Origin: Pseudodesulfovibrio sp.
GTDB taxonomy: Bacteria; Desulfobacterota; Desulfovibrionia; Desulfovibrionales; Desulfovibrionaceae
Length of the DNA: 64,000 nt
Assembly (NCBI GenBank): GCA_016744135.1
Contig: JADGEX010000001.1
Span: 1 to 64,000, forward strand
Direction of reading: 5' to 3'
In this document: positions 49,628 to 51,714 of the stretch, piece by piece
How positions within the stretch are numbered: position 1 is the stretch's first letter
Layout of the letters: every line of letters begins with the position of its first letter
Program-made: the position numbers and the translations under genes
The notes under the pieces: generated by a model
Seen by the model: the letters and a program-made list of their open reading frames with translations, nothing else
What the model was told of the DNA's origin: nothing
The model's database searches: none

Positions 49628-50059
49628 CTACATGGCGTAGAGTTTGTCGCCGGGGATGATGGAAATATTGTTTTTCTGTAACAATTCAATGCCTTGGTCG
49701 GTGCGGTCAAAGCGGAAGATAAGCACAGCCGAGTCACCGCTTTGCTGTACGAAAGCGTACATGTATTCCACATTGATTCCAGCATTTTGAAGCATACTCA
49801 GAATAGCATGCAATCCGCCAGGATCGTCAGAAACCTTGACGGCCACGACCGAGGTGCGACCAACGGTGAAGCCCGCTTCCTTCAGTGTGTCCTTGGCTTT
49901 GGTAAAGTCGGATACAATCAGACGCAGGATGCCGAAATCCGACGTGTCTGCCAGAGATAATGCACGAATGTTTACACCGGCCTCGGAGAGAAGACGGGTA
50001 ACTTCGGCGAGACGTCCGGCACGATTTTCCAGAAATATGGAGAGTTGATCTACTTTCAT
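49628..50059 (-). CDS. Tandem ACT-domain protein, amino-acid binding
   Basis: 143 residues made of two ACT domains: 1-68 ([47 protein letters not shown]) and 70-143 ([33 protein letters not shown]). The ACT ligand turns (Asn-Arg-Ala-Gly and Asp-Pro-Gly-Gly) are intact. There is no catalytic domain. Such proteins commonly accompany phenylacetate-CoA ligase in anaerobes, and probably sense an aromatic amino acid. ATG at 50059 with AGGAG upstream, 26 bp after the paaK stop, in the same operon. Confidence 0.88.
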
Positions 50060-50085: not shown

Positions 50086-51390
50086 TTAGCCTTCTTTTCT
50101 CTTGTCAATGATGCGTTTGGCCTTACCCACGGAACGTTCAATTTCCTTGGGGCTGACCAATTTGACCTTGGCGGTGACGCCGAGGAATTCTTTAATGTTT
50201 TTCATTACCTTTGATTCGACGCGTTGTAAATTCTTAATCTCATCGGAGAAAATGGACTCGTTGACTTCCACCTGAACTTCCAGAGTATCAAGGTTGCCCT
50301 TGCGGTCAACAATGAGCTGGTAGTGCGGTGTTAATCCTTCAGTTTCAATGAGAATGGATTCGATTTGAGACGGGAAGACATTGACGCCGCGGATGATGAG
50401 CATATCGTCGGAACGACCTGTTACACGCTTCATGCGGGCAGTGGTGCGACCACATTTGCAGGGGGTGGTGTTCAAAGTGGTCAGGTCGCGTGTCCGATAA
50501 CGGATGAGCGGAATGCCTTCCTTGGTCAGTGTCGTGAAGACCAACTCGCCTTCCTCACCGGGGGCTACAGGCTCGCCAGTTTCGGGGTTGATCGTTTCCG
50601 CAAGAAAGTGATCTTCCTGAATGTGCAGACCATCTTGAGCTTCAAGACATTCGATGGCAACACCCGGTCCCATAATTTCAGACAGGCCGTAGATGTCGAT
50701 GGCTTTGATACCGAGTTTTTTCTCGATTTCGAGACGCATTTCGTTGGTCCATGGCTCAGCACCGAAAATACCGATGCGCAAGGGGAGTTTTTTGATATCG
50801 ATGCCCATTTCTTCGCCTGTCTCAGCAAGGAACAGAGCATATGACGGTGTGCAACAGATGACGTCCGGTGAGAAATCTTTGAGCAGCGTGACCTGTCTGC
50901 GTGTGGCACCGCCGGAAATGGGAACGACTGTTGCTCCCAAGGCTTCTGCGCCGTAGTGCGCACCAAGGCCGCCTGTGAACAAGCCGTAGCCATATGCGTT
51001 GTGTACGGTGTCGCTGGCCGACGCACCCGCTGCCATGAAGGAACGGGCCATGAGTTCGCCCCAGTTCTTGATGTCACGCTTGGTGTAGCCGACTACAGTG
51101 GCGGTGCCGGTAGTGCCGGATGAAGAGTGGATGCGGACGATTTGGTCCTTGGGGACAGAGAAGAGGCCGAAGGGATATTGGTCGCGAAGATCCTGCTTGA
51201 CGGTGAACGGGAGCAGGGTGAGGTCTTTCAGACTTTTGATGTCCTGAGGCTTGACGCCTTTTTCATCGAATTTTTTCTTATAGAACGGGACATTGGCATA
51301 TACTCGTTCACAGAGAGCCTGGAGCCTTCGGAGCTGGATTTTTTCCAGATCCTCCCTGGGCAGGGTTTCATTTTTTACATCGTAAATCAT
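50086..51390 (-). CDS. paaK: Phenylacetate-CoA ligase
   Basis: 434 residues from the ATG at 51390 with AAGGAGG upstream; the length fits the family. It activates phenylacetate (or a related aryl acid) to the CoA thioester using ATP. AMP-forming signature [16 protein letters not shown], followed by [28 protein letters not shown], the adenylate region [17 protein letters not shown], and the hinge and C-terminal domain YRTRDLTTL...[19 protein letters not shown]. The family is clear; the exact acid is not. It is preceded by a phenylalanine-rich leader peptide and an attenuator, and followed by the ACT gene. Confidence 0.93.
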
Positions 51391-51431
51391 CCCGAGAACC
51401 TCCTTGCGCGGCCTTGATCGGCCCATGTTGA

Positions 51432-51505
51432 CAAAATAAAAAACCACGGTCCTTTCGGCCCGTGGTCTGTTTAGCGTTTTTACCGCTCCAAATACTCCAC
51501 GAGCC
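51432..51505 (-). promoter_or_regulatory. Transcription attenuator of the paaK operon (terminator/antiterminator pair)
   Basis: Reading on the minus strand. Terminator: ACCACGG (51466-51460), inner CC-GAAA-GG tetraloop stem, CCGTGGT (51449-51443), then TTTTTATTTT. Antiterminator: GGCTCGTGG (51505-51497) can pair with CCACGGGCC (51465-51457) over 9 bp with one G-U, destroying the 5' arm of the terminator. The antiterminator arm begins two bases past the leader stop codon, so a ribosome finishing the leader would cover it, whereas one stalled on the Phe codons would not. A further pair, CGCTCC (51540-51535, in the leader codons) with GGAGCG (51489-51484), could act as the protector stem. Confidence 0.75.
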
Positions 51506-51507
51506 AC

Positions 51508-51561
51508 CTACTGGGGGCACATAAAGAAAAAAAAGGAGCGAAATACGAGGAAATTTTTCAT
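51508..51561 (-). CDS. Phenylalanine-rich leader peptide of the paaK operon
   Basis: A 17-codon open frame, ATG 51561 to TAG 51508, encoding MKNFLVFRSFFFFMCPQ. Six of 17 residues are Phe, with four in a row (codons 10-13), as in the pheA and pheST leader peptides of enterobacteria. It ends two bases before the antiterminator arm. The ribosome site is weak (no clear purine run within 12 bases), and an in-frame ATG at 51609 could give a 33-residue version with the same end. Function as a tRNA-Phe charging sensor is inferred from this arrangement. Confidence 0.7.
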   Translation of the reverse strand: MKNFLVFRSFFFFMCPQ

Positions 51562-51714
51562 AAAGGCGAGACTGCCCCATGTTCCCGACCCCGTCAAGGT
51601 GTTTATCATTGGGTTGACGTAAGGAACGCGGTAAGACGGGGGATGAGTCCTCCCATTGCGGACCGGGGCAAAGTGCATTACATGGCTATGAGTCGTCTAA
51701 CGAACGAGGTTCAT

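Follow-up and report, generated by a model that had tools for sequence, protein, structure and literature searches.

A probable tRNA-Phe-sensing attenuator upstream of paaK in Pseudodesulfovibrio, and a candidate role for PaaK in phenylalanine synthesis

Comparative sequence analysis indicates that paaK and the adjoining ACT-domain gene in a 64-kb stretch of DNA from the sulfate-reducing genus Pseudodesulfovibrio (the window, meaning the whole stretch analysed) are very probably controlled by ribosome-mediated transcription attenuation, with charged tRNA-Phe as the signal sensed. An earlier note on this DNA had described the arrangement as classical ribosome-mediated attenuation; a Phe-rich leader frame, two mutually exclusive RNA pairings and the conservation of both in relatives support that description. 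The mechanism itself is already known; the novelty lies in the target gene, in the order to which the host belongs and in a message that is probably leaderless. We found no description of paaK attenuation among the listed titles and abstract beginnings of open-licence papers. Phe attenuation of the classical type would act on a gene usually filed under phenylacetate degradation. Since the sense of regulation forecasts which way the pathway runs, a label attached to genes of many anaerobes can now be tested directly.

Results and Discussion

Leader, switch arms and terminator in the window

All elements of the putative attenuator lie on the minus strand. Read from 51597 to 51388, they follow one another as a -35-like box (TTGACG, 51592..51597), a -10-like box (CAGTCT, 51569..51574, 17-nt spacer to TTGACG), the leader frame, region 2, region 3, the terminator, and the ribosome-binding site and ATG of paaK. 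The leader frame (51508..51561), which is kept in relatives, encodes MKNFLVFRSFFFFMCPQ and ends in TAG; its ATG occupies 51561-51559 and its stop codon 51510-51508. Six of its 17 codons specify Phe, four of them consecutively, exactly as the earlier note had read it. Two nucleotides beyond the stop codon begins region 2 (GGCTCGTGG, 51497..51505), the 5' arm of the antiterminator, and this spacing too had been read correctly. Region 2 can form 9 bp, one of them G-U, with region 3 (CCACGGGCC, 51457..51465). Region 3 in turn belongs to the 5' arm of a hairpin that is closed by CCGTGGT and followed by a T-run, so that it is common to antiterminator and terminator. This intrinsic terminator (stem AGACCACGG / CCGTGGTTT plus T-run, about 51438..51468) passes a strict terminator test. 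The paaK ribosome-binding site (AAGGAGG, 51399..51405) and the paaK ATG at 51390 follow, as had been claimed. Within codons 8-9 of the leader, region 1 (CGCTCC, 51535..51540) is a candidate protector arm; it is paired with GGAGCG (51484..51489) in the minimum free energy fold.

The RNA from 51432 to 51580 folds at -48.6 kcal/mol, compared with a shuffle mean of -37.2 kcal/mol (z -3.1), and is more stable than 200 of 200 dinucleotide shuffles. A consensus scanner called no terminators and no minus-strand promoters at the locus, the CAGTCT box included, and the case therefore depends on comparison with relatives. Of 43 Phe-rich leaders, 35 have a hexamer at the -10 position that starts with CA. 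We rejected a T-box, or another riboswitch of known type, for the window: an Rfam scan of the 64 kb returned a single match, a tRNA, with no family at the attenuator and no RF00230 match upstream of paaK.

Conservation of the leader frame among relatives

PaaK is present at E <= 1e-150 in 112 of the 149 family genomes searched. The comparison covers 139 upstream regions from as many genomes, counted once eight duplicate retrievals and L106, from another genome of the species in the window, had been set aside; the set is without six PaaK best matches (G125, G113, G062, G081, G111 and G014) and without second copies. A script scored as a leader any ATG frame with at least three Phe codons located 33-39 nt after TTGAC. 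Such a leader occurs in 44 of the 139 regions. Leader and strict terminator coincide in 40 of 139 regions and in 0 of 2780 shuffled regions; the remaining four leader loci have a mismatched hairpin, as judged by eye.

The earlier note had expected the Phe codons, the stop position and the pairing to be conserved in related genomes, and for the most part they are. All 34 Pseudodesulfovibrio loci hold the frame, and 28 of them have at least three Phe codons in it; the other six keep both frame and hairpin with one or two Phe codons. At least three Phe codons are also found at 11 of 17 loci in a second genus (g7), three of three in genus g13 and two of three in genus g28. L014, one of the 44, has scattered Phe codons and an eroded look, and the counts that follow are for the other 43 leaders. 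Phe makes up 240 of their 725 residues. TTY triplets number 240 in frame, compared with 113 and 126 in the other two frames, and of 83 C residues flanked by T, 63 occupy third codon positions. Pairwise comparisons of similar leaders, which are non-independent, contain 87 synonymous codon differences (37 at Phe) and 213 non-synonymous ones (57 touching Phe). Phe richness is therefore conserved and the peptide itself is not; the 57 differences touching Phe weigh against the attenuator. Some Pseudodesulfovibrio loci (L109, L118-L121 and L221) carry a Trp codon within the Phe run, giving FFWF or FSWF.

Conservation of the exclusive stems

Both mutually exclusive stems are retained in relatives, with some double changes. 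We assessed pairing in 30 Pseudodesulfovibrio sequences (L042 and L052 omitted; L014, L015, L016 and L124 were omitted as eroded from the permutation test and alignment A1). The antiterminator, which the earlier note had proposed from the window, is paired in 97.4% of cells, as against 24-47% for slid partners, and the terminator sharing region 3 is paired in 95.9%, as against 23-62%. RNAalifold selects the antiterminator unprompted. For each of the two stems, 0 of 500 shuffles reached the observed fraction of cells paired or the covariation score. Double changes amount to eight cells per stem and are restricted to two of nine pairs in the antiterminator and likewise in the terminator, and as many doubly changed pairs are reached by 85 of 500 shuffles for the antiterminator and 292 of 500 for the terminator. 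Between L128 and L018 in g7, regions 2, 3 and 4 are altered jointly, L128 reading TGCTTGTGG / CCACAGGCA / CCTGTGG.

The proposed protector pair fared less evenly. It can form in the window, and in Pseudodesulfovibrio the helix is more stable within loci (-16.1 kcal/mol) than across loci (-14.8 kcal/mol), with 97 of 20000 permutations as low. Over 46 loci no permutation of 20000 was as low, a figure confounded by kinship. In g7, by contrast, 8425 of 20000 permutations were as low as the same-locus pairing, and a search there for covariation between region 1 and its partner in the protector helix found no double changes.

A probable leaderless start

The leader ATG stands at a nearly constant distance from TTGAC. 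Among the 43 leaders, themselves chosen by the 33-39 nt criterion, the distance is 36 nt in 29, 37 nt in nine, 35 nt in four and 38 nt in one. With the distance criterion lifted, an ATG frame holding FFF is found at 33 of the 139 loci, and at 32 of these 33 the ATG still lies 33-39 nt after TTGAC. A Shine-Dalgarno sequence is usually absent before the leader (mean -2.1 kcal/mol, motif in six of 43); before paaK it is present in 43 of 43 (-10.5 kcal/mol). Ordinary sigma-70 geometry would put the start at the leader ATG or within one or two bases of it, and the leader message is probably leaderless.

In this way, the leader may be similar to Sinorhizobium meliloti trpL, whose transcript is reported (PMC7298713) to begin at the leader-frame ATG and possibly to be a leaderless message. 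The two differ in that trpL concerns Trp and trpE(G) and has a reported start, whereas the window concerns Phe and paaK and its start is predicted from promoter spacing. The probable leaderless start was overlooked in the earlier note, as were the repeated losses and the Bacillota Phe T-box before PaaK-ACT that are described below.

Proposed switching

From these elements we infer the following course of events. RNA polymerase would start at the leader ATG or within about two bases of it, and a ribosome would translate the leader frame from what is probably a leaderless message. When Phe-tRNA is scarce, the ribosome would stall in the Phe run and cover region 1, leaving region 2 to pair with region 3; the terminator would then be blocked and paaK transcribed. 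When Phe-tRNA is ample, the ribosome would reach the stop codon and mask region 2, regions 3 and 4 would form the terminator, and transcription would end near 51440. The Phe-rich leader peptide, the exclusive antiterminator and terminator, and the stop codon beside region 2 resemble the enteric pheA and pheST attenuators. The window differs from these in its target, paaK-ACT, in its host, a member of the Desulfovibrionales, and in its probably leaderless leader.

We modelled switching at 19 loci by equilibrium folding, with hand-chosen arms and a ribosome edge 12 nt beyond the start of the A-site codon. For the window, the predicted antiterminator probability is 0.04 in ribosome-free RNA and 0.05 with a ribosome stalled at Phe codon 4; it is 0.99-1.0 once the ribosome stands at Phe codon 7 or at codons 10-13 of the Phe run. 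A ribosome at the stop codon masks region 2 in the window, and does so at 18 of the 19 modelled loci with their hand-chosen arms. At L012, L110 and L111 the modelled change is located just before or inside the Phe run. For L063 and five g7 loci, the model has ribosome-free RNA antiterminated at equilibrium with a probability of about 0.9 or above, so the off state there must depend on a terminating ribosome or on folding order. For L043 (g28), stalling at Phe raises the antiterminator probability to no more than 0.23-0.25.

paaK, its neighbours and a route to phenylalanine

The paaK product (50086..51390, minus strand, 434 aa) matches TIGR02155, an NCBIfam equivalog, over its full length and as the best of 21 families listed. 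At 632.1 bits, the score is just below the curated cut-off of 646.3; PF00501 and PF14535 are both above theirs. The earlier identification as a phenylacetate-CoA ligase therefore holds for a full-length PaaK-like protein and falls slightly short of the equivalog threshold, and by paaK we mean a gene of this ligase family, with a putative substrate. The presumed second gene of the operon (49628..50059, minus strand) encodes an ACT-domain-pair protein (PF19571, E 4.8e-31), and a divergent nitroreductase-family gene lies upstream of the leader. An ACT homologue was found at 65 of 90 family loci, for many of which the DNA analysed extends only about 1 kb downstream, and at 60 of 80 genome-contig loci. 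At the latter, iorA and iorB each occur within about 2.5 kb of paaK in 33 of 80. In Acetivibrio mesophilus (L193) the gene order, by homology to the window genome's proteins, is iorA-iorB-paaK-ACT. The window genome encodes IorA and IorB away from paaK; membership of IorAB in the paaK operon was accordingly rejected, since the genes lie elsewhere, after another gene and with no leader visible by eye.

A switch that turns paaK on under Phe shortage implies that PaaK works anabolically. In the route that we envision, PaaK would convert phenylacetate to phenylacetyl-CoA, the indolepyruvate:ferredoxin oxidoreductase IorAB, working in the reductive direction, would convert phenylacetyl-CoA to phenylpyruvate, and transamination would yield Phe. 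A search of the window genome for PaaA/PaaC, one marker of one degradation route, returned no match. The proximity of iorA to paaK at 33 of 80 loci and this result suggest that PaaK probably serves Phe synthesis from phenylacetate, a conclusion of which we are less sure than of the attenuator. For Methanococcus maripaludis, aryl acids and indolepyruvate oxidoreductase are mentioned as another way of making aromatic amino acids (PMC4162585). That route is alike in leading from aryl acids through indolepyruvate oxidoreductase toward aromatic amino acids, and differs in belonging to an archaeon, with no attenuator mentioned in the cited passage; in the window genome, the reductive direction of the enzyme is a prediction.

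A second Phe sensor appears to precede the same gene pair in other bacteria. An Rfam scan of 60 of the 80 genome-contig loci (L158-L217) placed a T-box directly before paaK at three, all Bacillota-type: L169 (2126-2388), L170 (2124-2389) and L186 (2178-2440), the first two being close relatives by eye. All three have UUC, a Phe codon, at the specifier position. This position was read as the codon 6 nt before GAG (or AAG). At control genes named by eye from their translations, the reading gives the expected codon at eight sites (ileS, two valS, metS, tyrS, trpE, serA and a leuA-type gene) and fits nothing at five (pheS, cysS, thrS, homoserine dehydrogenase and a second metS-like gene); the pattern also matched additional places at several of the eight control sites and at the PaaK site L314. 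In the L169 genome, a T-box with UUC at the specifier position also stands before a DAHP synthase gene. T-boxes (RF00230) sense uncharged tRNA and are like the attenuator in standing before PaaK-ACT; they differ in being absent from the window, where the proposed device depends on translation by a ribosome. That two unrelated sensors would both switch paaK on at uncharged Phe-tRNA favours Phe synthesis.

We lean, by a modest degree, towards a broader proposal: PaaK, its ACT partner and IorAB may constitute a regulated route from phenylacetate to Phe in anaerobic bacteria of several phyla, with two unrelated tRNA-Phe sensors (the leaderless-leader attenuator in Desulfovibrionales and the Phe T-box in Bacillota) before the same gene pair, and many "phenylacetate degradation" genes would then be genes of Phe biosynthesis. 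Alternatively, the attenuator could be real and PaaK catabolic or redox-balancing, converting phenylacetyl-CoA to phenylacetate or disposing of aryl acids, with Phe control reflecting only general amino-acid status. Orthologues without the Phe leader predominate (95 of 139 loci), a related 2-oxoacid:ferredoxin oxidoreductase is oxidative in Tyr fermentation (PMC13285125), and the window genome encodes a prephenate dehydratase, so the phenylacetate route would not be the sole source of Phe. We consider this alternative possible and rather unlikely, since the attenuator and the T-box of three Bacillota loci would both raise expression at uncharged Phe-tRNA, a misfit with degradation, and PaaA/PaaC were not found in the window genome.

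The presence of an ACT-pair gene after paaK raises another scenario. ACT domains commonly bind amino acids, and the RNA could bind a ligand directly as a riboswitch, or bind a protein such as the ACT protein itself, the leader frame being secondary. This is very improbable given that no Rfam family matches and that mean column identity in the alignment is 61%, with most invariant columns falling in the ATG, in the switch arms and at part of the T residues in the Phe run.

Distribution, decay and loss of the attenuator

A covariance model of the attenuator matched 49 of 247 family genomes, once each, and 45 of the matches lie just upstream of paaK. Thirty of these 45 are the model's source sequences or their genomes and 15 are neither; the model is sequence-specific and uninformative on dissimilar Phe leaders elsewhere. 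The window scores E 5.7e-19. Weak matches in G123, G125, G113 and G039 (E 0.06-0.1) were not seen to adjoin a PaaK match. In a PaaK tree of 138 of the 139 rows, built by a quick method, all 43 labelled leaders fall within one part of 66 rows, and the other part, 72 of 138 rows, is leader-free. The tree needs eight leader changes, six of them forced by well-supported branches.

Decayed copies of the leader occur in several lineages, and some relatives keep the gene without it. At L045, L133, L136 and L137, AGG stands at the position of the leader ATG (script-checked for L045 and L133), and both Phe frame and pairing have decayed. Least probable of all is that a constitutive terminator follows a T-rich untranslated leader that regulates nothing: although TTT arises in any frame of T-rich runs, as the 113 and 126 out-of-frame TTY triplets illustrate, and although some relatives have lost the leader and kept the gene, chance T-richness as the source of the Phe frame was rejected on the basis of the shuffles, the in-frame Phe excess with its third-position C and the near-fixed distance from TTGAC to ATG, and a by-product would fit neither the pairing of region 2 with region 3 nor the decay of the Phe frame where AGG replaces ATG. 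Four loci of genus g29 (L022, L023, L028 and L030) retain a GCCACGG-type hairpin before paaK without a Phe-rich frame.

Outside the family we read 38 loci, of which L281 is mis-anchored, and little DNA precedes the gene at L288, L309, L297 and L293. L275, L307 and L308, from other families of the order, carry aromatic-rich leaders at a distance of 36 nt from TTGAC, and by eye their switch arms and terminator match as well. These leaders before paaK mix Phe with Tyr, and L275 also has Trp; its run, YWYFWY, suggests that it may sense more than Phe. At six loci of another family (L289, L291, L295, L298, L299 and L302) the frame lies at 35-36 nt and contains one to three Phe codons; a seventh locus of that family, L301, has one at 34 nt with none. 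L287, also outside the family, carries AGG at the same leader position as the decayed copies.
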